Part shown: piece by piece, positions 50,182 through 62,768 of the stretch
Layout: the number at the start of each line of letters is the position of its first letter
How positions within the stretch are numbered: position 1 is the stretch's first letter
Assembly: GCA_002841155.1 (NCBI GenBank)
Contig: PHEH01000001.1
Span: forward strand, 124,001 to 188,000
DNA: 64,000 nucleotides
Origin: Alphaproteobacteria bacterium HGW-Alphaproteobacteria-18
GTDB lineage: Bacteria > Pseudomonadota > Alphaproteobacteria > Caulobacterales > Hyphomonadaceae
Direction: 5' to 3'
The notes under the pieces: model-generated
Told to the model about the DNA's origin: nothing
Database searches by the model: none
Seen by the model: only the letters and a program-made list of their open reading frames with translations
Position numbers and translations under genes: made by a program

Positions 50182-52230
50182 ATGAAATTCTCACTCCTGA
50201 GCCGGCGCTTCGCCGGCTGCGCGCTTGCCGTGCTCTCCCTCAATTTGCCTGCGATTGCCGAAGAGGCTGCCAATGTTGAAGCCGAGGCCCGGCTCGATAC
50301 CGTGACTGTGCTAGGCGATGATACGAATATTGCTAACCCGGTCCGTCTTCCGGTATCTGCGCGCATCAGCTCGCAGACCCTCACGGCCGAAGACATTGTC
50401 CGTATCCAGCCCGCAGATGTCTTCGACCTGTTGAATGTCGGCACCGGCGTATTCACAACGACAACCGGGAAGAAAGCACCATCAAACCTCAATATTCGGG
50501 GCGATGGCAATTTCGTGTTTGTCATCGACGGCGCCTATATGCCGTCCTTCCTCGCCTCGCGCGTATTGAAGACGTTGCCGGTGATCGCTATCGAGGAAGT
50601 CCGTATCGTGCGCTCTTCCACGGCCCTCACACTTTCGCCGCTGGTTGGTTTAGTGTCGCCCTCTGGCGCGCCGAATAACGGTTTCATCGTTGTGCGCACA
50701 CGTCAGCCCAGAGAAACCGAGCGCCTGGCGCGAGCCTTTGTCGGCGAGCACGATACCTATGAAGCCGGACTCCGCCTCGGAACCACTTTCGATGTTGGCG
50801 GCGGGGAAGGCTACGTCAACGGGGTCGCCTCGTATGCGACGACGGAAGGTCCGGAGGGGATGAACCTGTTCCGGGACTCGCGCTCGGTTGCCGCCCGTGC
50901 CGGGTATGCCGGAGACCGGCTCAAGCTCGATGCCTCCCTCATCCAGACATGGGCCGAGTTTGGATATCAACGCTCCACTCAGAAACTGCGCGATTCCACG
51001 TACAATGCCCGCTGGACGATGGACCCGCTGGATACGATGACCGTGTCACTGAACGGCGAGTTCCAATGGAACGATACCAACACGACGATTGCGACGGTCG
51101 CCCATACGGCGAGTGACGGCAAGTTCCGTCAGGCGAGCTATGTCACACCCGCCGTTACGGTGCTCGACAATGACAACAAGCTGACCAATTTCAACCTGCG
51201 CCACACGATCAGCCTGGGCGGTACAAAGATCACGGGCGGCGGCGACTTTGTCAGCTGGCACACGCCGACTGGCCAGTTTTATTACGAAGGAATCGAGCGC
51301 GAGGAAGAGGTGTTCGGCTACTTCCTTCAGGCCGAGCAGTCCCTGTTCGATGATAAGCTGAATCTCGATATTGGGGGCAGGATTGATCAGGTCACGATTG
51401 TAACCGGTATTGACTATTACCTCGCTGGGCGAGGCCCGACGAACCCGGTCACGATTACCGATCGAAAATTGCCAGAGGCCGAATTCCTCTCCGCAGGCGC
51501 GAGCTATGAACTGGCGCAGGATTGGCTTCTGAACGTTCGTTATGGCTACTCTTCCCAAGGTGCCCGGCAGGATGTGACGCCGTTCCCGGATGTGGTGCTT
51601 GAAGGCGAAACACGGGAGAAGTTCGAAATAGGTTTTGAAGGCAGGGTCAATGACTGGCTGCGCCCCTCGCTCAACTATTTCCAGGTCGAGACGACGAACG
51701 AAGCGGCGCCGCGGGATTATGTGACGGTCGGAGGAGTCCAGACTGCCCGCTATGATAACGCCGACAGCAAGCGGACAGGCGCTGAAGTGGTAGTGTCGGG
51801 TGACTGGACGTTGAGCGGGGGCGCTGGTGGGTACAGGGTCAGCGCGACGCACTATTTCGATGTGCTCGATCCTTCCGGCCTCATTGCCCGCACGCAGCCT
51901 GATACGGTGGCGGAAATCCAGCTGCGCCAGGACATTGGCAAATGGTCGGCTGCGCTGCTCGGGAAGTATGTCGAGGAGTATGAGTCAAACGCCTTCGGCC
52001 GCTGCACGCTGCCTGGCGGCGAGTGTTCGCCGGCCATGACGCCAGCCTACCTGCCGATCGGCGACTATTCTACGCTCGACTTCACGCTCTCGCGCGATGT
52101 CACTCTGGCTGATGTCGACATGAAGTTCACCGTCTCCGCCCGGAACCTCACAGACGAAAAATATGAAACGTCGCTCGGATATCCGAACGCCGGCCGTATG
52201 CTCGGTATCGAACTTCTGGCGGGCTTCTGA
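50182..52230 (+). CDS. TonB-dependent outer membrane receptor
   Basis: A 682-residue receptor with a signal peptide (ending PAIA), a TonB-box-like LDTVTVLGD, a plug domain with SNLNIRGDGNFVFVIDGAYMP and IEEVRIVRSSTALTLSPLVG, and a barrel ending LLAGF. Its ligand is probably a metal chelate given DUF2946 and PepSY neighbours. It belongs to a different branch from the Fur-controlled receptor at 12629, and no Fur box was found upstream. The PepSY gene starts 2 bases after its stop. Confidence 0.9.
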   Translation: MKFSLLSRRFAGCALAVLSLNLPAIAEEAANVEAEARLDTVTVLGDDTNIANPVRLPVSARISSQTLTAEDIVRIQPADVFDLLNVGTGVFTTTTGKKAPSNLNIRGDGNFVFVIDGAYMPSFLASRVLKTLPVIAIEEVRIVRSSTALTLSPLVGLVSPSGAPNNGFIVVRTRQPRETERLARAFVGEHDTYEAGLRLGTTFDVGGGEGYVNGVASYATTEGPEGMNLFRDSRSVAARAGYAGDRLKLDASLIQTWAEFGYQRSTQKLRDSTYNARWTMDPLDTMTVSLNGEFQWNDTNTTIATVAHTASDGKFRQASYVTPAVTVLDNDNKLTNFNLRHTISLGGTKITGGGDFVSWHTPTGQFYYEGIEREEEVFGYFLQAEQSLFDDKLNLDIGGRIDQVTIVTGIDYYLAGRGPTNPVTITDRKLPEAEFLSAGASYELAQDWLLNVRYGYSSQGARQDVTPFPDVVLEGETREKFEIGFEGRVNDWLRPSLNYFQVETTNEAAPRDYVTVGGVQTARYDNADSKRTGAEVVVSGDWTLSGGAGGYRVSATHYFDVLDPSGLIARTQPDTVAEIQLRQDIGKWSAALLGKYVEEYESNAFGRCTLPGGECSPAMTPAYLPIGDYSTLDFTLSRDVTLADVDMKFTVSARNLTDEKYETSLGYPNAGRMLGIELLAGF

Positions 52231-52232
52231 TC

Positions 52233-53750
52233 ATGAGCCTGTCGAAGCTGAAGCTACCGAGCCTCGCCTTCGTACACAAATGGCTGGGCCTCATCATTGG
52301 GGCCTGGCTGTTCGTGCTCGGATCAACGGGATTCCTGCTGCTCAATCGCCACTGGGAGTGGCAGGGGACCAGCGGCTTGCCGTTGCCTGGGCTCGCGCGG
52401 GAGTTGGGCGCCCACAATGACAAGTATCTCTGGCGTCAGTTCCAGATGGATCCGGCAAACCCTGACTGGCGCATTGCCGCCGGCGCGGCCGGTGCGTTTG
52501 TGTCTGAAGATCGCGGCGAAAGCTGGAAGCGGGTTCCGTTCGGTGATCGCTCCGGCCATGATGTGCAAGGTATCGAGATCGCAAAGACTGAGCCATTCGC
52601 GCTCTACGCGGCAACAGCCAACGGTATCTGGAAGCTCAATGCCGAACGTGAGGGTTTTGAGCCGGTTGGCCTGCAAGGCAGGCGGGTGACCTCTCTATCT
52701 TCTGACGGCGATACGTTACTCGCTGTCATTGGCAGGTCTTCAGTCATGGAAACTAAGCTTTCAGAACTGGCGCTCGACTGGACCCGTGTTGAACTGGGCG
52801 CTCCGCCAGCGGGGGCAAAGGCAAAGGAGATAGACCTCGGCCGCTTCTTGCAGGATCTGCACAATGGCCGTGGACTTTTCGGTGGCGCTGTTGATCATTT
52901 CATCTGGTCACTGACCAGCATTGGTTTAGCCCTTCTTGCCATTACAGGCTTGCTTTACTGGCTTGGCCTGAAGCGTGGCCTGGAAGCTCGCAAGCGGGCA
53001 AAGCTCCAAGGTGCCTCGAAAAAGCCCATCGAGCAGTGGCGCAAGGCCGTGCAATGGAGTTTCCGCCTCCATGCCAGCGTTATCGGCATCATTATCGCGA
53101 TCCCCCTGACAATTACATTCCTGACGGGTATCTATCAGGATCACCGCTCTGACGTGCAGCAATCCTTCCGGAAGATCATGGTGCCCGACATCGTGGCAAC
53201 GCCAGCATACAGCACAAAAGGCTGGGCAGGACGTATTTACGGCGCCGCCCTTGCGGAAACGTCCGACGGTCAAAAGATTGCGCTTGCTACGCGCAATGGT
53301 GTTTTCCTGTCACCAGATGGTGGTCAGACCTGGGCCCAGGACCTGACGTTCAAAGGGCCGGCCATGCGTATGCGGCGGATCGGGGATGAATTGATCGTCC
53401 CAGGGCGGATGATGCGCCGTGTACAGAAGCGCGATGAAGAAGGTTGGAAAGTGCTCGACGTGCCGATGGGGGCGGTCATGTCCAATGAGATGACGCTGTC
53501 ACAGGGCAAGCTTTACTGGCAGCGGGGAGAGAACATCTTCATTACCACCCCGGAAGGCGAAATGCGCGGCAAGTCAGACCATAACCCGCCAGGCCTGGAG
53601 TATGTTCCCTGGGGATTGCTGGCACTATCGGTTCATGATGGCGCACTGTTTCATGAACAATGGAAATGGATCAATGATCTGATCGCATTGGCGGGCCTTG
53701 CCTTGGTGGGCACCGGCATCCTGCGTTGGGCCAAACGAAAGAAATGGTAG
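52233..53750 (+). CDS. PepSY-associated membrane protein, long form with BNR-like repeats
   Basis: A 505-residue inner-membrane protein with at least four helices: about 15-36, 225-250, 280-302 and near the C-terminus (LIALAGLALVGTGILRW). Between them are periplasmic stretches with repeat-like beta units, such as GAFVSEDRGESWKRVPFG and GVFLSPDGGQTWAQDLTF, that look like BNR/sialidase Asp-box repeats (S-x-D-x-G-x-T/S-W). Such proteins are proposed to move electrons across the membrane to reduce imported metal. Tightly coupled to the receptor upstream. Confidence 0.75.
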   Translation: MSLSKLKLPSLAFVHKWLGLIIGAWLFVLGSTGFLLLNRHWEWQGTSGLPLPGLARELGAHNDKYLWRQFQMDPANPDWRIAAGAAGAFVSEDRGESWKRVPFGDRSGHDVQGIEIAKTEPFALYAATANGIWKLNAEREGFEPVGLQGRRVTSLSSDGDTLLAVIGRSSVMETKLSELALDWTRVELGAPPAGAKAKEIDLGRFLQDLHNGRGLFGGAVDHFIWSLTSIGLALLAITGLLYWLGLKRGLEARKRAKLQGASKKPIEQWRKAVQWSFRLHASVIGIIIAIPLTITFLTGIYQDHRSDVQQSFRKIMVPDIVATPAYSTKGWAGRIYGAALAETSDGQKIALATRNGVFLSPDGGQTWAQDLTFKGPAMRMRRIGDELIVPGRMMRRVQKRDEEGWKVLDVPMGAVMSNEMTLSQGKLYWQRGENIFITTPEGEMRGKSDHNPPGLEYVPWGLLALSVHDGALFHEQWKWINDLIALAGLALVGTGILRWAKRKKW

Positions 53751-54046
53751 GTGCCGTATTTGGCTTCGCCTGAGGTGACTGCCTGACATGAGAAGCGGCT
53801 GCGCTTCAGTTACCTTAATTTTCTGGCCAGGCTTAAGGGAACCGATTGCGGTTGAGGTCGTTAGTCTCAGACGAACGCGCCGAGAGGCGAGTTTTCATTA
53901 TGTGGGGCCTGCTTGTGGTACCCCGCCGGGTCCTTCCCATGCGGGACCTCGCGAGAGCTGGAATGGCGGGCCATCAACGCTGCGGGCTGTAAGGGCGCGC
54001 GAGTGGATATGAGGCCCTGAATGACTGCAAGCTCACGGGAAGGGAT
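53751..54046. other. 296-base gap before the oxidase cluster
   Basis: A short hairpin, GAAGCG-GCTG-CGCTTC at 53792-53807, with an imperfect outer stem (TGAGGTGACTG with CAGTTACCTTA) and a loose T-rich end could terminate the PepSY transcript. Small open frames here have no recognisable content. No clear operator was found. Confidence 0.35.
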
Positions 54047-54790
54047 GTGAATACGGTTATTCCTTATTGTGGCGCGCCGCCTGTGCCAGCGACTCTCATG
54101 AGTGACTGGAACTTTGATCTGATCCCGGTCGGTCTTGTGCTGCTTGTCCTGATGGGTGGGGTTTGGACACACAATTCCCGTGCAGGCAGCTGGCAGCGCG
54201 ATGTCTTTGTCTCGATTGCGGCCTCCGGGCTGGTCGTCGCGTTTATCTCTCCCCTTTGTGCTTTGACGGTAGCGCTCTTCTCGGCCCGAAGCCTTCACCA
54301 CCTTGTGCTCATCTGCATGATCGCCCCGGCCTTGGCGCTGTCTTTTCGGCGCTTGCGGTTCCCCGATAAGGCGGGAGGTTTGTCGTTTGCCGCCTTGTCT
54401 CTGATGCTTTGGGCCTGGCATGTTCCGGTGATCTACTCTGCGGCCTGGGACAGTCACGCCGTTTACTGGGCTATGCAGTTTGCGCTCATCGGCACGGCAT
54501 GGGCATTCTGGTCCGTGGTCCTGAGGCAAGAGGCTGGATCTGCAAGGCTTGGCATTGCACTGATGCTGGCCGGGCTCGCCGGGCAGATGGGCCTTATCGG
54601 CGCGATCCTCACATTCTCCGGAAATGTGCTTTATACTGAGCATATTCTTTTGACAGACGTATTCGGTATTTCTGCGCTGGGTGATCAGCAGCTGGCAGGT
54701 CTTCTCATGTGGGTGCCTGGCATGATCCCTCTCGGGATATTTGCCGCGCTCATCCTGCGTCGTGGCTGGCGGGAGGTTTCCGCTGCATGA
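54047..54790 (+). CDS. ctaG: Cytochrome c oxidase assembly protein, CtaG (caa3) family
   Basis: A 247-residue protein with about seven membrane helices of the caa3_CtaG type, needed for assembly of heme-copper oxidases, probably in copper delivery. FISPLCALTVALFSARSLHHLVLICMIAPAL, LWAWHVPVIYSAAW and DQQLAGLLMWVPGMIPLG are the family's blocks; the paired His and WHVP His are candidate metal ligands. GTG start at 54047 preceded by GGGAAGGG. Overlaps the next gene by ATGA. It heads the oxidase cluster. Confidence 0.87.
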   Translation: MNTVIPYCGAPPVPATLMSDWNFDLIPVGLVLLVLMGGVWTHNSRAGSWQRDVFVSIAASGLVVAFISPLCALTVALFSARSLHHLVLICMIAPALALSFRRLRFPDKAGGLSFAALSLMLWAWHVPVIYSAAWDSHAVYWAMQFALIGTAWAFWSVVLRQEAGSARLGIALMLAGLAGQMGLIGAILTFSGNVLYTEHILLTDVFGISALGDQQLAGLLMWVPGMIPLGIFAALILRRGWREVSAA

Positions 54791-55293
54791 TTGCATTTCT
54801 GAAGGCCGGACATATTGCTTCCCTGTCCTTGTGGTGTGCGGGCCTGTTAGCCTTGCCGATTATCCTTCAGGTATATGGCCGCCGGGGAAAGACGCACACT
54901 CAGGCGGGGTTTGGCGAGTTCCGTCAGGTTCTGCACGTAGGGTATACGCGGGTGGTGACGCCTGCTGCCGTGATCGCCATCATTTTCGGGACGGTTCTGA
55001 TCGTGCAACTGCAACTGCGTGCCGACTGGCTCATGGCCAAGCTTGCAGTGGTGGCAATGATGGTCTTGCTTCATGCTTGGCTTGGCCACATGATCCTGAA
55101 GACGACGGAAGGGCGGGGAAGTTACCAGATGCCGTCCCCGCTATTCGCCGTTCCCTGCGGTATATTGCTGATTTTTTTGGCTCTGGTCCTTGTGCTCGCC
55201 AAGCCGGATCTGACTGCCGTGCTCGAAAGGCTCCCGCAATTCCTTCACCAGTCTCAAGAACGGGATCTGCCTTCCGATCTGGTGCCGATCTGA
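54787..55293 (+). CDS. CopD/HemJ-like membrane protein
   Basis: A 168-residue protein with four hydrophobic helices. FLKAGHIASLSLWCAGLLALPII at the N-terminus resembles the K-x-x-H-I-x-x-x-x-W-x-AG-L-L pattern of HemJ and CopD proteins, which deal with protoporphyrinogen oxidation or copper. LHAWLGHMI adds another His. Supplying heme or copper to the oxidase would suit the context. Translationally coupled to ctaG. Its last 40 bases overlap the convergent DUF2231 gene. Confidence 0.65.
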   Translation: MIAFLKAGHIASLSLWCAGLLALPIILQVYGRRGKTHTQAGFGEFRQVLHVGYTRVVTPAAVIAIIFGTVLIVQLQLRADWLMAKLAVVAMMVLLHAWLGHMILKTTEGRGSYQMPSPLFAVPCGILLIFLALVLVLAKPDLTAVLERLPQFLHQSQERDLPSDLVPI

Positions 55294-55766
55294 TAGTCGA
55301 AGACGAGCTTTCCGCCATGCCATCCTGTTACAGCCGTCATCCCGGCCGCCATAAGCGACACGAGGATTCCCATAGGGAGAACTGCGCCCTCAGGGTCGCC
55401 GATACGGATAGTCCAGTTCGCGCCGAGAATAGCAAGGAGCATGACAGCCAGGATGAAATGGTTCCAGCTGGCCGTCCGGTTACGGATGCCGCGCACCAGC
55501 AGCAGTTCTGCCGTGCCGGTAATCCCTGCAAGCACGCCAATTGCGAAAGCCCCGAATGCGGCATAGCCCGCAGCGCGTGGCCAGAACGGATCTCCGGTCC
55601 AGAGGTAGAGTGCATCGGTCCCGAGGACGCACATCGTCAGGGCAATCGGGAAGGCAACCAGCATCGCATGCAGTGGGTGTCCGGATATTGCGATCCTGGA
55701 TTCGGTTTCGTGCAGCCCGAGATGATCTTCAATCGGATCGTCCAGTTCGTCCGGCATCTTGTCCAT
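55254..55766 (-). CDS. DUF2231 membrane protein
   Basis: A 170-residue protein with four helices. SGHPLHAMLVAFPIALTMCVLGTDALY is the typical DUF2231 start (HPLH then helix), and ASWNHFILAVMLLAILGANW the third helix with a His. The family may bind heme or act beside redox enzymes; function unproven. It is encoded against the surrounding oxidase genes and its start is only 21 bases from the oppositely directed subunit II gene. Confidence 0.75.
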   Translation of the reverse strand: MDKMPDELDDPIEDHLGLHETESRIAISGHPLHAMLVAFPIALTMCVLGTDALYLWTGDPFWPRAAGYAAFGAFAIGVLAGITGTAELLLVRGIRNRTASWNHFILAVMLLAILGANWTIRIGDPEGAVLPMGILVSLMAAGMTAVTGWHGGKLVFDYQIGTRSEGRSRS

Positions 55767-55787
55767 AGCGCAGCCCCCAGAAAAAGG

Positions 55788-56474
55788 ATGGTGTCGCTAG
55801 TCAAGCGCGCGGGAAGCGTTTCTGTTCCATTGCTTGTGGTTTCGGCATGCTCATCGCCATTGTCCGCCCTCAATCCTGCGGGCCCGGCGGCGGATGCGAT
55901 TTCCATTCTTTGGTGGATCTTTCTTATCGGCGCAGGCGTTCTCACGCTATTCGTCATGTGCCTGATTGCCATTTCCTTTGGTGGCCCGCGCCAGGTGTCG
56001 GAACGCCGCTGGACGGTCGGTCTCGGTGTCGGCTTTTCGCTTGTTATTCTCAGCGGGTTGCTGGTTTCCGGCATTGCCGTCGGGGAACGGCTTTTGCCAA
56101 AGGAAGATGCGATTGTTGTTCATGCGCATGCGCGTCAATGGAGCTGGACCTTCAGCCAGCCGGGTCCGGGCGGGGTGTGGGTTGAAACAGAGCGGGATCT
56201 TCACATTCCGGCGGGCCAGCCTGTTGATGTGCGCGTTACTTCTGGCGATGTGATCCACTCCTTCTGGGTGCCGCGTCTGGCCGGAAAGATCGACGCGATC
56301 CCCGGTCGCGAGAATGTGCTGCGTATCGAAGCGGATCGTCCCGGTATCTACGAAGGCCGCTGCGCGGAGTTCTGTGGTCTGGGATATTCAGGGCATCGTT
56401 TCAGGGTGATCGCGCACAGTCTGGATGATTGGCCGGAAAGTATTCCACTTATTCCGGCGGAGGAGGCGGAATGA
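55788..56474 (+). CDS. coxB: Cytochrome c oxidase subunit II, atypical CuA site
   Basis: A 228-residue lipoprotein-type subunit II (LLVVSAC, Cys21) with two helices (about 38-62 and 78-98) and a periplasmic cupredoxin domain. VHAHARQWSWTF and DVIHSFWVPRL (His157, first CuA ligand) are normal. The CuA loop reads C192-A-E-F-C196-G-L-G-Y200-S-G-H203. The two Cys and Glu194 are kept, but the His expected four residues after the second Cys is Tyr, and the Met expected at +7 is His. No c-type heme motif follows. Either the site is rearranged or electrons enter another way. The family start and AAAAAGG support 55788. Overlaps subunit I by ATGA. Confidence 0.88.
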   Translation: MVSLVKRAGSVSVPLLVVSACSSPLSALNPAGPAADAISILWWIFLIGAGVLTLFVMCLIAISFGGPRQVSERRWTVGLGVGFSLVILSGLLVSGIAVGERLLPKEDAIVVHAHARQWSWTFSQPGPGGVWVETERDLHIPAGQPVDVRVTSGDVIHSFWVPRLAGKIDAIPGRENVLRIEADRPGIYEGRCAEFCGLGYSGHRFRVIAHSLDDWPESIPLIPAEEAE

Positions 56475-59032
56475 CAGTGACTCCACAAGGTTCGGACACT
56501 GATCAAAATGCAAGCTCGCAGACAGCTGCCAATCTTCCTCAGCCGGCCTTGCGTCTGCATTGGGAGCTTGATCGCGTCTGGCGGAATGACCGTGGGCTGC
56601 GCGGTCAGCTGAGGGCTGTGAACCACTCGACCGTCGGTCTCCGGTTCATGTGCACATCGCTTATATTCTTCGGCATTGGCGGCATCCTCGCCATGCTCAT
56701 ACGCACACAGCTAGCGACCCGCGAAGGGGCGTTCCTCGATACAGAGCTCTATAATCAGATCTTCACGATGCATGGCACCATCATGATGTTCCTGTTCGCT
56801 ATCCCCATGCTTGAGGGGTTGGCGATGTATCTGCTTCCAAAGATGCTGGGCACCAGAGACATGGCGTTCCCTCGCCTGTCATCATTTGGCTATTGGTGTT
56901 TTCTGTTTGGTGGGCTGATCCTTCTGGTTGCGATGTTCGCCGGTGTCGCGCCGAGGGATGGCTGGTTTATGTATACACCTCTATCGAGCAGCGCCTATTC
57001 GCCCGGTATCAACGCGGATGTGTGGTTGCTGGGGGTAACCTTTGTCGAGATTTCTGCCCTGGCGGCCGCTGTCGAAATTACGGTAACCATTTTGCGGATG
57101 CGGGCGCCCGGTATGAAGCTGACCGATATGCCGCTGTTCGTCTGGTACATTCTTGGTGCCGCTGCGATGATGCTTGCAGGGTTCCCGCCGCTCATTGCCG
57201 GATCGGTCTTGCTGGAGATGGAGCGTGCTTTCGACTGGCCATTCTTCGATCCGGAACGTGGCGGTGATCCTTTGCTATGGCAGCATCTGTTCTGGTTGTT
57301 CGGTCATCCGGAGGTCTACATTATCTTTCTTCCGGCTGCTGGAGTCATATCGACGATCATTCCCGTACTGAGCCGTACACGGATACTGGGATATGGCGCG
57401 ATTGTTGCTTCCATACTGGGGCTCGTATTCCTCAGCTTCGGTTTGTGGGTGCACCACATGTTCACTGTGGGTATTCCGCATATGGCGCTGGCCTTTTTTT
57501 CGGCGGCCTCACTGCTCGTTGCTGTGCCGACGGCTGTTCAGGTATTCGCCTGGATCGGCACGATGTGGAAAGGCCGCCCGCAACTTCAATTGCCGATGCT
57601 CTATATTCTCGGTTTCTTCTTCACCTTTGTGATGGGCGGGCTAACGGGCGTCATGCTCGCTATCGTGCCGTTCAACTGGCAGGTCCATGATACCGCCTTT
57701 GTGACCGCACATCTGCACTATGTTCTCATCGGCGGATTTGTATTTCCCATGATGGCGGGTCTTACCTACTGGCTGCCAATGATCACTGGCCGGCAGCGTA
57801 TCAAGGGGATCGGGGAACTGGCCTTCTGGACAATACTCATAGGTTTCCATGGGACGTTCTTCATCATGCATCTGACCGGGCTGATCGGGATGCCACGCAG
57901 GATCGACGTTTATCCGGATAATCCTGAATGGGGCCTGCTCAATCTCGTTTCATCCGTTTTTGGATTTATCATGACGATCGGATTTGCGCTGTTCGCTTTG
58001 GGCGCCATTCTTCAGGCATGGTTGGGGAAGCGCACGGCGCGTGATCCGTGGAAAGCCCCTACACTGGACTGGGCGATGGCGTTGCCGCCGCCGTCCTATA
58101 ATTTTGCCTCGCTACCTGGGCCCGCCATAACCGGGATGGAGGATGCCGGCAAAGCGGCGCTTCCACTGGCGCGCGGAGAAGGCATGCTTCCGGGGGCGCC
58201 GCGCGGACGCCGTGAGGTTCTGGTTACGAGTGTGGGGGAGGCGAGAATGGAGCATGTGGCCATACTTCCTTCGAACACCGCTGTGCCTCTGTTCCTGGCT
58301 GCGGCCGTAGGCGTGTTCGTGCTCCTGATGCTATTTGGCCTTTATCATGCCGCGCTGGTGTCGCTCATGCCTGTTCTCTGGTTGGTCTGGCGCTGGGCGC
58401 GCAACATGGTATCGCAGAGCGCGATTCCACCCGTGCATGTCGCGCCCGGCGTTCTGCTGCCGGTGCATTATGATTGCCCCAACACGCTGACCTCAACTGG
58501 GCTCAGATGCTTTCTGTTCGCCAACGGAACATTCTTTGCGTCTCTCGTCTTTGGACTTGCTTTTCTCTCCCTGGTCTCGCCCGGGCCTCCGCCGCCTGAG
58601 CCTGCGGGCACCTTTGCCGCAAGAGCAGTGATAATCATGTTCGGCTTGCTGGCGCTTGTGCTGGCTTCGGTTGTTCCAGGCCGTCTGTTGCAGAAGGTGC
58701 CCAGCAGGGCGGTCACTGGGCGGTTGGTCCTGTTCAGCCTGGCGGCCAACCTGATCACGTTGCTGGCGGCAGGTGGTCTGGCGCTCTGGCAAATGGAAGA
58801 TCCAACCGTCCATGCGCGCGGCGCCGTGCAAGCCGCATTGCTTGGCTATGTGTGCCTGCATGTATTCATCTCCGGTGTCTTCTCGGCATTTGTGCTGGAT
58901 CAGAACCGGCGGGGCGAAGTATCAGCTGACCGGCTAGGCGCCCTGCGCCACTGGAAGCTCTGGCAAGCTTTCACAATGGCCATTGCCGTCCTCTCAAGCG
59001 CAGTCATCTTTGCGCAGGGCGTGAGCATATGA
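56471..59032 (+). CDS. coxA: Heme-copper oxidase subunit I fused to subunit III
   Basis: An 853-residue oxygen-reducing core of the A-family with a subunit III-like C-terminal region (about 600-853). Ligands: heme a His101 (TMHGTIM) and His416, heme a3 His414 (AHLHYV), CuB His279, His328 and His329. The His-Tyr cross-link pair H279-P-E281-V-Y283 is intact, as are Asp130 (D-channel entry, RDMAFPRL) and Glu281. However, the K-channel lysine position reads AVPTAVQVFAW, Gln357 instead of Lys, and the D-channel Asn pair after FPRL is Ser-Ser. So proton supply differs from the textbook enzyme. The ATG overlaps subunit II. Confidence 0.93.
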   Translation: MTVTPQGSDTDQNASSQTAANLPQPALRLHWELDRVWRNDRGLRGQLRAVNHSTVGLRFMCTSLIFFGIGGILAMLIRTQLATREGAFLDTELYNQIFTMHGTIMMFLFAIPMLEGLAMYLLPKMLGTRDMAFPRLSSFGYWCFLFGGLILLVAMFAGVAPRDGWFMYTPLSSSAYSPGINADVWLLGVTFVEISALAAAVEITVTILRMRAPGMKLTDMPLFVWYILGAAAMMLAGFPPLIAGSVLLEMERAFDWPFFDPERGGDPLLWQHLFWLFGHPEVYIIFLPAAGVISTIIPVLSRTRILGYGAIVASILGLVFLSFGLWVHHMFTVGIPHMALAFFSAASLLVAVPTAVQVFAWIGTMWKGRPQLQLPMLYILGFFFTFVMGGLTGVMLAIVPFNWQVHDTAFVTAHLHYVLIGGFVFPMMAGLTYWLPMITGRQRIKGIGELAFWTILIGFHGTFFIMHLTGLIGMPRRIDVYPDNPEWGLLNLVSSVFGFIMTIGFALFALGAILQAWLGKRTARDPWKAPTLDWAMALPPPSYNFASLPGPAITGMEDAGKAALPLARGEGMLPGAPRGRREVLVTSVGEARMEHVAILPSNTAVPLFLAAAVGVFVLLMLFGLYHAALVSLMPVLWLVWRWARNMVSQSAIPPVHVAPGVLLPVHYDCPNTLTSTGLRCFLFANGTFFASLVFGLAFLSLVSPGPPPPEPAGTFAARAVIIMFGLLALVLASVVPGRLLQKVPSRAVTGRLVLFSLAANLITLLAAGGLALWQMEDPTVHARGAVQAALLGYVCLHVFISGVFSAFVLDQNRRGEVSADRLGALRHWKLWQAFTMAIAVLSSAVIFAQGVSI

Positions 59033-59349
59033 GCGGCGGCGGTTTCCGCTGGTTGGGGCTTGTGCTTCTCGGGCCGGCAATCTGGGCCGTCACGTTCGCG
59101 GGCGTTTATGCCTTGCACGGCGCAGGCTGCGCTTTGGGTTGGTCAACCAGAATGGCTGGCCCGCTGACCTTGCATCACCTGGTCATGCTAGCGGGGTGGA
59201 CAGCAGGGATCGGTGCCGGAATATGGTTTCTCGTACGTATGCCTGCTGGGCGTGACCGGAGTGTCTGGATCCCCCGTATAGGCGGTATCATAGGTCTTGC
59301 GTCTACCGTATTCACCTTGTTGCCGCTTCTGTTTGCCAGCAGCTGCTGA
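59029..59349 (+). CDS. Small membrane protein of the oxidase cluster
   Basis: A 106-residue protein with three predicted helices (about 8-28, 46-66, 83-103), starting RWLGLVLLGPAIWAVTFAGVYALHG and ending ASSC. Its ATG overlaps the subunit I/III stop, so it is coexpressed and may be an accessory or subunit IV-like component. No family could be assigned. It is the last gene of the cluster; the next 248 bases hold no clear gene. Confidence 0.6.
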   Translation: MSGGGFRWLGLVLLGPAIWAVTFAGVYALHGAGCALGWSTRMAGPLTLHHLVMLAGWTAGIGAGIWFLVRMPAGRDRSVWIPRIGGIIGLASTVFTLLPLLFASSC

Positions 59350-59597
59350 GCCAGCAAGCTATCTATGCCTGCCTATGTGGCGGTGCGTGCCGCCGGCTTG
59401 GGGCATGACCGGACGATCAGAACATTCAGTGAGCAAATGAATCGACATCGCCGCATCAAGGGCTGGGTCTGCTGAGTCCATCCCGGCCGGATACGTGTGA
59501 TGCGCAATCCAGATTAAATGAATAGTTTCTGGATCATCCGGGCAATTGAGGCGTTGGTCCCGGAATCCCCATCATCCGCTTTGGAAGGAACCTCCTC

Positions 59598-61253
59598 ATG
59601 CCTCTTCGTACCGGCGCCCAGCACCTTCTTGATGCCCTCCTTGTGAATGACGCACACGTCGCCTACGGAGTTCCGGGGGAAAGTTATCTCGGCTTGCTGG
59701 ACGCGATCTACGAAACAGAGGGGCGGTTCCGGTTCATTGTCTGCCGGCAGGAAGCTGGCGCGGCCAACATGGCTGAAGCGCATGGCAAGATGACTGGCCG
59801 TCCGGGCATTTGCATGGTCACGCGTGGGCCAGGAGCAACTCAAGCCAGCGTTGGGGTTCACACGGCGTGGCAGGACTCTACACCGATGATCCTTTTGATC
59901 GGGCAGGTGTCGAGGAAAATGCGGGACCGTGAGGCGTTTCAGGAGATCGATTATAGAGCGTTCTTTCAGAGTCAGGCAAAATGGGTTGCCGAAATCAACG
60001 ATCCGGCCCGCGTGCCGGAATTCATGGCGCGCGCATTCGCGACAGCCATGAACGGGCGACCCGGTCCAGTGGTTTTGTCGTTGCCTGAAGACATGTTGAC
60101 GGAGAAAGCAGAGGCGCCTGCAATTCGTTTTGTGGAACCCGCCAACGCCTCTATCGCGCCGCAAGATATTCGCTGTCTGGAACAGATGTTGTCTCAGTCA
60201 AAACGTCCTTTTGTGATCTATGGTGGCACGAAATGGGACCAGCAGACTGCCGACTTTGCCAGGGAGTTTGTGGAGGCCAATGACTTGCCGGTTTCTTGCT
60301 CTTTCCGGTCAAAAGATCACTATGATAATACCGCCGCAAACTATGCGGGCGATCTCGGGGTGAGCCCGAGCTCCAAATTGGTCGACCGTATACAGAATTC
60401 GGATTTGCTGATCGTGTCCGGGGCCCGCCTCGGAGAGATGACGACTTCAGGATACTCGATCCTCCGGCCGCCGGTATTGGAGGGGCAATGTCTGGTGCAC
60501 ATTCATTCGGGGCCAGAGGAACTGGGACGGGTCTATCAGCCTGATCTTGCGATCAATGCCACAGCGCCGGCGGCCGCCCGCGCATTGTCACAAGTGCGCG
60601 TGAGTTCCCGTGCATGGAAAGGGCAGGCGGCAGAAGCCAATGCTGAGTACCGTGACTTTGCCAAACCTGTTGCAGTGAAGAGTGGGGTAAATCTTTCCGA
60701 GGTTTTCAGTTGGCTATCGGATAATCTGCCCGTCGACGCCATTGTGACAAACGGAGCAGGAAATTATGCAGCCTGGCTGCATCGTTTCTACCGCCATCGC
60801 AGGTGTCGCACCCAGCTTGGCCCGACTTCGGGCGCAATGGGGTACGGTGTCCCTGCAGCCGTCGCGGCCAAGATATGTAATCCCGAAACAACTGTTGTGT
60901 CGATCAACGGGGATGGATGTTTTCTGATGTGCGGGCAGGAACTTGCTACGGCTGTCCAATATGGCGCGAACGCTGTTTTTATAGTCTGCGACAACAGCGC
61001 GTATGGAACGATCCGTATGCACCAGGAGCGGCATTATCCTGGCCGCGTGAGCGGCACATGGCTGAAGAATCCGGACTTTGTAGCCTATGCAGAAAGCTTT
61101 GGGGTAAAAGGTATCCGGGTGTCGAAGACCGAGGATTTTCCGGCGGCCTTCCAGGCCGCACAAGAATGCGGGAAACCGGCGCTCCTGCATCTTCTCTGTG
61201 ATGTCGAAGAAATTGCGCCTGGCCGGACGATCAGCGATATCCGGCCCACCTGA
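59598..61253 (+). CDS. ThDP-dependent enzyme, acetolactate synthase large-subunit-like
   Basis: A 551-residue thiamine-diphosphate enzyme. The catalytic Glu52 lies in CRQEAGAANMAEAHGKMTGRPG, the middle FAD/DHAP-synthase-like domain includes RPFVIYGGTKWDQQ, and the cofactor-binding block is NGDGCFLMCGQELATAVQYG, extended to DNSAYGTIRMHQE. It resembles IlvB-type or related decarboxylases, but no small regulatory subunit gene is adjacent, so a biosynthetic acetolactate role is doubtful. Family relatives include benzoylformate decarboxylase-like and sulfoacetaldehyde-type enzymes. Not obviously linked with the oxidase. Confidence 0.82.
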   Translation: MPLRTGAQHLLDALLVNDAHVAYGVPGESYLGLLDAIYETEGRFRFIVCRQEAGAANMAEAHGKMTGRPGICMVTRGPGATQASVGVHTAWQDSTPMILLIGQVSRKMRDREAFQEIDYRAFFQSQAKWVAEINDPARVPEFMARAFATAMNGRPGPVVLSLPEDMLTEKAEAPAIRFVEPANASIAPQDIRCLEQMLSQSKRPFVIYGGTKWDQQTADFAREFVEANDLPVSCSFRSKDHYDNTAANYAGDLGVSPSSKLVDRIQNSDLLIVSGARLGEMTTSGYSILRPPVLEGQCLVHIHSGPEELGRVYQPDLAINATAPAAARALSQVRVSSRAWKGQAAEANAEYRDFAKPVAVKSGVNLSEVFSWLSDNLPVDAIVTNGAGNYAAWLHRFYRHRRCRTQLGPTSGAMGYGVPAAVAAKICNPETTVVSINGDGCFLMCGQELATAVQYGANAVFIVCDNSAYGTIRMHQERHYPGRVSGTWLKNPDFVAYAESFGVKGIRVSKTEDFPAAFQAAQECGKPALLHLLCDVEEIAPGRTISDIRPT

Positions 61254-61260
61254 GCAGGCG

Positions 61261-61353
61261 CTATGCGAGCGGCATGGCAAGACTGGCTGCCAGCACAAGG
61301 AGAAGTGCTGCGGCGGCGATTGAGAGGAGGAGGGCGATCCGTTGGCGAAGCAT
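61261..61353 (-). CDS. Candidate 30-residue membrane peptide
   Basis: A short frame encoding MLRQRIALLLSIAAAALLLV and then LAASLAMPLA. It is a single hydrophobic helix with a basic N-terminus. Its ATG lies 2 bases after the stop of the ferric-reductase-like gene on the same strand, an arrangement expected for translational coupling, as with CydX. No homologue is known to me, so it may be chance. Confidence 0.45.
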   Translation of the reverse strand: MLRQRIALLLSIAAAALLLVLAASLAMPLA

Positions 61354-61355
61354 CT

Positions 61356-62768
61356 TCAGACCAGCTCGAACACTTCAGAGTCGATATGTCTGGCCGGTGT
61401 ACCCATTCCGTTTAGAGCCTTGACGACCACTTTGACCATTGGCTTTGGCCCGCAAAGGAAATACGGCCAGTCCCGGCTTTCTTCTGGCAGGTGAGCTTTG
61501 AGGCTTTCAGCATTCACTCGGCCTGATTGGCCTTCCCAGCCCTGGGGCGGGTCATCAAGGTAAAGTATGGTTTTTAGGTTCAACTCTTTGGAAAGGTGTT
61601 CCAGTTCTTCTTTGAAGGCGATGCTATCTTCATCAGAATTTGTGTAGATGAGAATGATCGGACGCGGATCATTTCGTGCTGCCAGCGCATGTAGGTTGGA
61701 AATGATGGGTGTAATCCCGACACCGCCAGCGATCATGATGAAGCCCGCTGCATCAGGTTTTCGGTCCACCGAGAACCCGCCATAAGGGCCGTCCACATAA
61801 GCGATTGTCCCAGGGCTTGTTTCGATCAGTCTGGCTGTATCATCGCCGAGTGCCTTGATCGAGAAAGTGAGATTTGGGCCATGGTCTGGCGCTGTTGAGA
61901 TCGTGAAAGGATGTTCCTTCAGGGCGAAGGGAGAGCGGCCGATACTGAGCCAGGCAAACTGGCCTGCTTTCCATTTTTTCAAAGGTTTGCCGAGCGGGGC
62001 GAGTTCAAGCGTGTGTACGCCCCCGCCACTATGGGTGTTGGATACAACCTGCCAGGGGTTTCGCGACTGTAACCAGGGCCGAAGTGCGCGGCTCCAGATG
62101 AGCAGTGCTGCCCAGCTGATGGTAACGCCAATCCAGAGTGCGCGCTGTCCAGGGTCTGCCGTATAGCGGTCCACGCCGAGCACGTGGGCTATCGCGGCAG
62201 CAAAGCCCGTTACAGCGAGGGCTACGTGCAGATACCGCCACCACTCATACCTCAGCCGCAGACGCTTCCGGAATTCGGAAGAGATGATCAAGCCAATGAA
62301 ACACGCCATCGCAAGGCGGCCAGAGGTCAACTCCCAGCGCGCCGTCAGGGGATTGAGATCGCCCAGTTCTGGCTCAAACCAGATATAGAGAATGAGAAAA
62401 TGCCCGATCACCAGACCCAGCGCGATACGGCTCATATACCGATGAAAAAGATAGACAATGTCTGCCCCGAAGGGGTGCGTCATCCATCTCAGCCGGCCGG
62501 TCAGCGCAAACTGCAAGGCGATCAATGCCAGCCCCCCAAAACCGAGCCCCATGGAGAATTCGCGCAGTGGTGGACTGGGTACGGACAAAGATGACCAATG
62601 AAGGATTGCAAATGGCGCCGAGAGAGCCGCGCAGCCAGCTGCAATGAGCCCGAAAGCCCAGAGCCAGAGTATCCAGGGTTGCTCGCGAACTTTCACGCGC
62701 CCTTGCGGGGGGAGCGGATGTTCTTGCAAATTCGAAATGGCTTTGGGCTTGGGCATAGTTGAGAACAA
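61356..62768 (-). CDS. Ferric reductase-like transmembrane flavoprotein
   Basis: A 470-residue protein combining a ferric-reductase-like heme membrane domain (about 35-230, six helices, with paired His in YLFHRYMSRIALGLVIGHFLILY and WWRYLHVALAVTGFAAAIAHVLG) and a ferredoxin-NADP reductase-type module. The latter has HPFTISTAP (FAD), GGVGITPIISNLHALAAR (NAD ribose) and YFLCGPKPMV. It would pass electrons from NAD(P)H via FAD and heme b across the membrane to metal or oxygen. Starts at 62768 or 62756 are possible. Its divergent neighbour is a TonB receptor. Confidence 0.88.
   Translation of the reverse strand: MFSTMPKPKAISNLQEHPLPPQGRVKVREQPWILWLWAFGLIAAGCAALSAPFAILHWSSLSVPSPPLREFSMGLGFGGLALIALQFALTGRLRWMTHPFGADIVYLFHRYMSRIALGLVIGHFLILYIWFEPELGDLNPLTARWELTSGRLAMACFIGLIISSEFRKRLRLRYEWWRYLHVALAVTGFAAAIAHVLGVDRYTADPGQRALWIGVTISWAALLIWSRALRPWLQSRNPWQVVSNTHSGGGVHTLELAPLGKPLKKWKAGQFAWLSIGRSPFALKEHPFTISTAPDHGPNLTFSIKALGDDTARLIETSPGTIAYVDGPYGGFSVDRKPDAAGFIMIAGGVGITPIISNLHALAARNDPRPIILIYTNSDEDSIAFKEELEHLSKELNLKTILYLDDPPQGWEGQSGRVNAESLKAHLPEESRDWPYFLCGPKPMVKVVVKALNGMGTPARHIDSEVFELV

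Follow-up and report, generated by a model that had tools for sequence, protein, structure and literature searches.

A partly altered CuA site in an A-type terminal oxidase of Hyphomonadaceae and the ligand states of its relatives

How an A-type terminal oxidase obtains its electrons when ligands of its CuA site are exchanged is the question raised by two overlapping genes of Alphaproteobacteria bacterium HGW-Alphaproteobacteria-18 (Hyphomonadaceae). The genes cox2 and cox1 lie in a stretch of 64,000 nucleotides (contig PHEH01000001.1, positions 124,001 to 188,000; assembly GCA_002841155.1), which as a whole is called the window and to which all coordinates refer. With a probability of roughly 0.55, their product is a functional A-type terminal oxidase whose CuA site for electron entry has been dismantled in part, with the electrons arriving by another route. 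The features concerned are:

55788..56474, forward strand: cox2, oxidase subunit II, 228 amino acids (Pfam COX2; Foldseek matches to subunits II)
56256..56258, forward strand: His157, first CuA histidine, kept (His in 97 of 97 loci)
56361..56396, forward strand: CuA loop with Cys192, Glu194 and Cys196 kept, Tyr200 (56385-56387) and His203 (56394-56396)
56471..59032, forward strand: cox1, oxidase subunit I with a C-terminal extension of about 300 amino acids (Pfam COX1 only)
56879..56884, forward strand: Ser137-Ser138 at the D-channel Asn pair (by alignment)
57539..57541, forward strand: Gln357 at the K-channel Lys, Lys354 of Paracoccus denitrificans (by alignment; a family trait)

The cox2 product has a lipobox cysteine (Cys21), two transmembrane helices and a cupredoxin domain. 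Both bridging cysteines of CuA, the first histidine and the backbone glutamate are present; the second histidine and the methionine ligand are missing, with Tyr200 (TAT) where most relatives have His and His203 (CAT) in place of their Met. The initial annotation had described these exchanges, and they were read again in the sequence and in the alignment. In the five nearest CuA-intact relatives checked, the two codons are CAT and ATG, from which His-to-Tyr takes one base change and Met-to-His three. A sequencing error is unlikely, since two other species of the genus (L004 and L005; subunit II 72% identical) carry the same Tyr/His state. A misalignment or a compensating histidine nearby was ruled out, as the loop aligns without gaps to the relatives and to Escherichia coli CyoA. 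An AlphaFold model of subunit II (56 sequences) has two long helices and a strand-rich domain, with a mean predicted local distance difference test (pLDDT) score of 90.2 and of 86 over residues 191-200; Foldseek ranked the subunit II proteins of quinol, caa3, bo3 and aa3 oxidases highest.

The ligand states were surveyed in 97 loci (the window, L004, L005 and L033-L126). L001 and L003 (the window again), L002 and L006-L032 (canonical, quinol and other oxidases) stand outside this set. It combines hand-picked plasmid matches (14 of the 60 matches listed, out of 730 matching records) with the best 80 of a collection scan; the near-duplicates L035/L053, L036/L068 and L083/L089 are counted separately. 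His157 is part of one of the two scan patterns, and that pattern favours members that keep it, a bias of which the plasmid matches are free.

Both cysteines are kept in 79 of the 97 loci, with His at position 200 in 76 and Tyr in three, the latter being the window genus; four intact rows are gapped at the Met column by misalignment. The remaining 18 loci have lost both cysteines, and all 18 combine Tyr200 with His157 and Glu194. Their position 203 is occupied by His (11), Phe (4), Met, Ser or Asp (one each). Met-to-His with the other ligands kept was found in five loci (L038, L045, L057, L071, L072). Of 55 further loci, some of which may repeat loci of the 97, 47 have both Cys, His and Met, and three were missed by the motif search; the other five lack the cysteines, and each of them has Tyr and Phe. 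The family thus offers a series from intact CuA over Met-to-His and the Cys-Cys-Tyr-His state of the window to complete loss of the cysteines. L072 (6001-6636) lies on a contig labelled Bacillus sp. 2B10 and its module closely resembles the one in Sphingomonas sp. Leaf10 (L071); it is possibly mislabelled or contaminated, and the same may apply to L077, labelled Chloroflexi.

The two coppers of CuA share the bridging cysteines; the first is further bound by the first histidine and the methionine, the second by the second histidine and a backbone carbonyl. In the window, the ligand set of the first copper would be complete with His for Met, and the side-chain ligand of the second would be lost. 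As one copper would then lack its only side-chain ligand besides the bridging cysteines, the site is expected to hold at most a single Cys2His2 copper (Cys192, Cys196, His157, His203), or none. As far as function and donor can be predicted from sequence, the Tyr/His oxidase most likely has no normal binuclear CuA. Less surely, heme a would be fed by a membrane donor and not by soluble cytochrome c via CuA; candidates are quinol or histidine-bearing membrane partners such as the DUF2231 and CopD proteins encoded next to the oxidase.

The best of the alternatives is a modified and yet binuclear CuA, in which His203 stands in for the axial Met and Tyr200 or water for the lost His, with cytochrome c as donor and an altered potential. 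We regard this as possible and on balance rather unlikely. All three species of the genus keep both cysteines, His157 and Glu194, and the five loci with Met-to-His alone suggest that His at 203 is compatible with a kept site. Moreover, engineered proteins that lack one CuA ligand can retain a CuA-like centre. Against this, Tyr200 is present in each of the Cys-less loci and is therefore at least compatible with the absence of copper, and we know of no case in which Tyr serves as a CuA ligand.

In subunit I, the catalytic core is complete. The cox1 gene overlaps cox2 by 4 bases, and the ATG at 56471 is its most likely start (853 amino acids), whereas the open reading frame listing began it at TTG 56429. 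The C-terminal extension is COX3-like by position, with no Pfam COX3 match. Alignment bore out the earlier statement that the heme, CuB, Tyr283 and Glu281 residues are intact: subunit I keeps the histidines that we take to bind the hemes and CuB, as well as Tyr283, Glu281, Asp130 and two neighbouring arginines (476-477). Tyr283, Glu281 and Asp130 correspond to Tyr280, Glu278 and Asp124 of P. denitrificans, as expected of an A1-type enzyme; the channel residues of this type were taken from the consulted part of the list in PMC3084760.

Trees were calculated from 57 rows of subunit I and from subunit II without the CuA loop, with LG+G4 for the topology tests. On either tree, position 200 requires three switches between His and Tyr, and Tyr is found on three branches: the window genus, which adjoins CuA-intact rows of Roseinatronobacter and Rhodobaculum; Paracoccus alcaliphilus (L034), whose loop state is Ser, Ser, Tyr, Met; and all other Cys-less rows, united in a clade of 18 with subunit I. 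In both trees, the approximately unbiased test rejected a common clade for the Tyr rows as a whole (p 2.1e-5 for subunit I, 9.1e-4 for subunit II). Rejected as well were a clade of L034 and the window genus alone (p 3.5e-4) and a grouping of L034 with the other Cys-less rows (p 1.5e-8). The placement of L034 varies, beside the window clade with subunit I (84/35) versus beside Paracoccus with subunit II (93/80). In the subunit II tree, the well-supported branches alone force no more than two changes, and the Cys-less rows do not form one supported group. Rows with Met-to-His adjoin the Cys-less clade in the subunit I tree with weak support (86/37). Since regaining a full CuA site is unlikely, three separate gains of Tyr from ancestrally intact ligands would fit these trees better.

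The initial annotation had further proposed a functional variant and not decay, which is in line with open frames in three species of the genus, the complete catalytic core, the three-base Met-to-His exchange and the substitution rates. The ratio of nonsynonymous to synonymous substitutions (dN/dS, NG86) between the window and L004 is 0.144 for cox2 and 0.045 for cox1 (over 493 residues); several of the pairs calculated have dS > 1. Decay is unlikely because two congeners share the state of the window and the ratios are low. In view of the low ratios, the intact catalytic residues and the three-base exchange, relaxed selection on an accessory, rarely used oxidase whose entry site drifts towards decay appears improbable, although the module is patchy (4 of 105 genomes of the family match at E 1e-40 or better), its close relatives are plasmid-borne and a canonical aa3 oxidase is encoded in the same genome (subunit I locus L002). 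Such drift is also hard to reconcile with similar substitutions on separate branches.

Comparison with quinol oxidases is obvious, as an aromatic residue replaces the second CuA histidine there as well. In the HMMER alignment to the window loop, E. coli CyoA has Ser at both Cys positions and Phe at position 200, together with Asn and Ser at the positions of His157 and Glu194. Phe at position 200 is also found in the presumed quinol oxidases of four congeners, whose Qox genes were named from loop and alignment, and many Cys-less relatives have Ser or Asn at the Cys positions. Unlike the bo3 and aa3-600 enzymes (CyoAB, QoxAB), the window oxidase keeps both cysteines and His157, lacks a bo3-type quinol site and lies on a separate branch.

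Arg71, Asp75 and His98 (E. coli numbering) are taken by us to form the quinol site. At these positions, subunit I of the window has Ile69, Leu73 and Leu93, the Asp being Glu in the enzymes of the congeners. The Arg of the congeners' site is found in none of the 56 rows that cover the stretch (of 57), and the His in one, L037. In terms of score, subunit I reaches 424.9 bits versus a cut-off of 1020.35 for CyoB and 456 versus 1015.5 for QoxB, but exceeds that of CtaD (692.6 versus 670.75 bits), which two of three Cys-less relatives also pass and the third just misses. In the tree, a branch with support 100 separates two of the presumed congener quinol oxidases from the family. A disguised member of the bo3/aa3-600 quinol oxidases can thus hardly be meant, despite the CyoA-like aromatic residue and a subunit II just under the CoxB cut-off (143.9 versus 147.7 bits), which a CuA-intact relative misses too (140.7 bits). 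To judge from scores and trees, the window oxidase is not a member of the quinol-oxidase family, and it may nevertheless work like one.

Several observations weigh against the preferred reading of a partly dismantled entry site fed by another route. Neither the window nor the Cys-less rows have the bo3-type Arg, Asp/Glu and His (apart from the lone His in L037), so that a quinol donor would have to act without a recognised site. None of the 18 Cys-less loci has lost His157 or Glu194, unlike E. coli CyoA, and some site may therefore persist in these members. Cys-less and intact members are not separated by the net charge of their periplasmic domains (p 0.29), which leaves a loss of cytochrome c docking unsupported. 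The changes on the trees are unrooted counts, and three could equal one gain and two reversals. For L034 versus L051, dN/dS amounts to 0.37 and 0.40, so the argument from purifying selection is weaker on this branch. Finally, no subunit I residue was found that is common to all three Tyr lineages, the window included, and absent from the intact rows.

The latter was seen when columns were screened for residues that the window genus has in common with the Cys-less clade and that are rare in intact rows; 18 columns passed, nine per subunit. Among the window's own residues in this search, only Tyr200 and His203 are absent from all 30 intact rows. Ile607 of subunit I is present in both congeners, in L034 and in 11 of 17 Cys-less rows, and the window has Leu. 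Beside the two arginines, the window retains Pro475. In the Cys-less clade, all 16 rows with a letter at this position have Arg, which is found in 2 of 45 intact rows. Glu181 was rejected as a convergent residue, as two congeners (L182, L183) carry Gln and Glu is also present in some intact rows.

The proton channels of subunit I had been considered part of the same change. Gln357 and the Ser-Ser pair are indeed found where they were reported, and the channel alignment is right because the organism's own canonical aa3 (L002) has Lys and Asn-Asn in the same columns. Two further D-channel changes had been overlooked: Asn113, Asn131 and Asn199 of P. denitrificans correspond to Met119, Ser137 and Glu202, while the K-channel residues Thr351 and Ser291 are retained as Thr354 and Ser294 (as far as given in the consulted part of the list named above). 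Of the 97 loci, window included, 88 have Gln at the K-channel position, 3 have Lys, 2 have Met (L036 and L068), and 4 lack a letter there. Ser or Thr is common at the first D-channel Asn position, also in CuA-intact members; the second is Ala in 90 of 94 loci with a letter, which makes Ser138 unusual. At the position of Asn199, Glu was found in 85 of 96 loci (3 gaps), and all 20 canonical aa3 loci compared have Asn. The D-channel Asp is kept in 83 and the Glu in 92 of the 97 loci.

The K- and D-channel changes are hence family traits, being widespread in CuA-intact members too, and of the exchanges regarded as distinctive only the second Ser stands out. The supposed link between the changes in the two genes did not hold: among loci with a letter in this column, Gln357 occurs in 73 of the 76 with both cysteines and in 15 of the 17 without them, and no partner residue in subunit I was found. 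As nearly all members lack the K-channel Lys and most the D-channel Asn, the family bears on the question of which channel residues are needed for pumping. K-channel variation in general is already known, since variants have been mapped in family A, with seven losses under one hypothesis (PMC8239418, as consulted in part).

The oxidase genes are part of a module (54047-59349) with the following further genes:

54047..54790, forward strand: ctaG, Caa3_CtaG copper assembly factor (PF09678 match)
54787..55293, forward strand: CopD/UPF0093 (HemJ-like) membrane protein (Pfam; start inferred from the overlapping ATG)
55254..55766, reverse strand: DUF2231 membrane protein (Pfam)
59029..59349, forward strand: small protein, last gene of the module (open reading frame; homologues in the modules of relatives)

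The small protein has no Pfam or NCBIfam match. Two histidines of CopD are invariant in 55 of 55 aligned homologues and three of DUF2231 in 53 of 53; they could bind heme, and the two proteins might donate electrons. Homologues of both were found for all 21 Tyr200 rows (window not counted). These neighbours are not confined to altered CuA, as DUF2231 lies beside 26 and CopD beside 28 of 30 CuA-intact rows.

More speculatively, and as a whole doubtful, the family may have evolved a CuA-free feeding of A-type oxidases repeatedly and in a manner unlike the bo3 site. Tyr200 would be a selected part of the entry route, as a structural element or redox relay, DUF2231 and CopD would be the donors, and the window genus would stand midway with a single Cys2His2 copper.

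The identical gene order is annotated on plasmids of Roseinatronobacter, two Paracoccus, Sulfitobacter, Pararhizobium, Limimaricola, Rhodobacter and Shinella, and is also present in two congeners. The layout differs on plasmids of Roseomonas marmotae (small gene not annotated), Pelagibacterium (CopD and DUF2231 not annotated), Alteromonas (ctaG downstream) and Rhizobium phaseoli (another arrangement). Within the genus, a subunit II match (E < 1e-100) was obtained in 3 of 37 genomes. The nearest relatives outside the genus belong to Paracoccaceae (subunit I tree), and the G + C content is 0.56-0.60 across 54000-62000 versus 0.58-0.66 in the remaining 2-kb bins. From the G + C content, the Paracoccaceae relatives and the patchiness, our guess is a horizontal gain of the module.

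By description alone, the module resembles the A1-type subtype a operons for cytochrome c oxidase (COX), which carry a COX1-3 fusion and Caa3_CtaG (Degli Esposti, 2014, 2019; PMC4013037, PMC6431628). It shares the long subunit I with a C-terminal extension, the Caa3_CtaG gene (PF09678) in the cluster and the alphaproteobacterial host. In contrast to that subtype as described in the parts consulted, CuA is altered in the window, and DUF2231 and CopD go unmentioned there. The coxMNOP genes for a ccaa3-type enzyme (PMC5492768) are likewise, by description only, an additional A-type cytochrome c oxidase set beside another aa3-type enzyme; unlike here, no loss of CuA is described in the part consulted. 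The deranged enzymes of PMC10715153 were set aside, as they concern mainly bc1 in the consulted part.

A comparable intermediate between a CuA oxidase and a CuA-free one is CyoA of Acidithiobacillia, which keeps one vestigial CuA Cys, such remnants being stated in the part consulted to be absent from other lineages (PMC8528912). That protein is of the bo3 type with one Cys, whereas the CtaD-type enzyme of the window keeps both and its relatives lost them on at least two branches. Measured against that statement, and on sequence grounds, the family is another, repeated case of CuA remnants outside Acidithiobacillia.

A series from intact to Cys-less ligands is described in none of the cited papers as consulted within the open-access literature. 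In the same literature, no paper on a CuA with M160H was found, and nothing on DUF2231 with cytochrome c oxidase beyond an apparent database paper. For the origin of quinol oxidases from cytochrome c oxidases by loss of CuA, the discussion has so far had few intermediates to draw on. The present family, which is mainly alphaproteobacterial, contains enzymes with intact CuA alongside Met-to-His, Tyr/His and Cys-less ones, and Tyr occurs on three of its branches; the order of the steps and the donor at each step can therefore be tested with natural enzymes.

Upstream of ctaG, a TonB-dependent receptor and a PepSY protein are encoded (50182-53750, forward strand), possibly metal uptake genes, without homologues at the other loci searched (E 1e-5). 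Downstream of the module follows a thiamine-pyrophosphate enzyme of the PRK08199 subfamily (59598-61253, forward strand), likewise without a homologue at the other loci searched. A ferric-reductase-like membrane protein with FAD and NAD domains (61356-62768, reverse strand; Pfam) has homologues near the oxidase module in the fetched stretches of L040, L050, L055, L059, L060 and L079, and is a possible electron donor.

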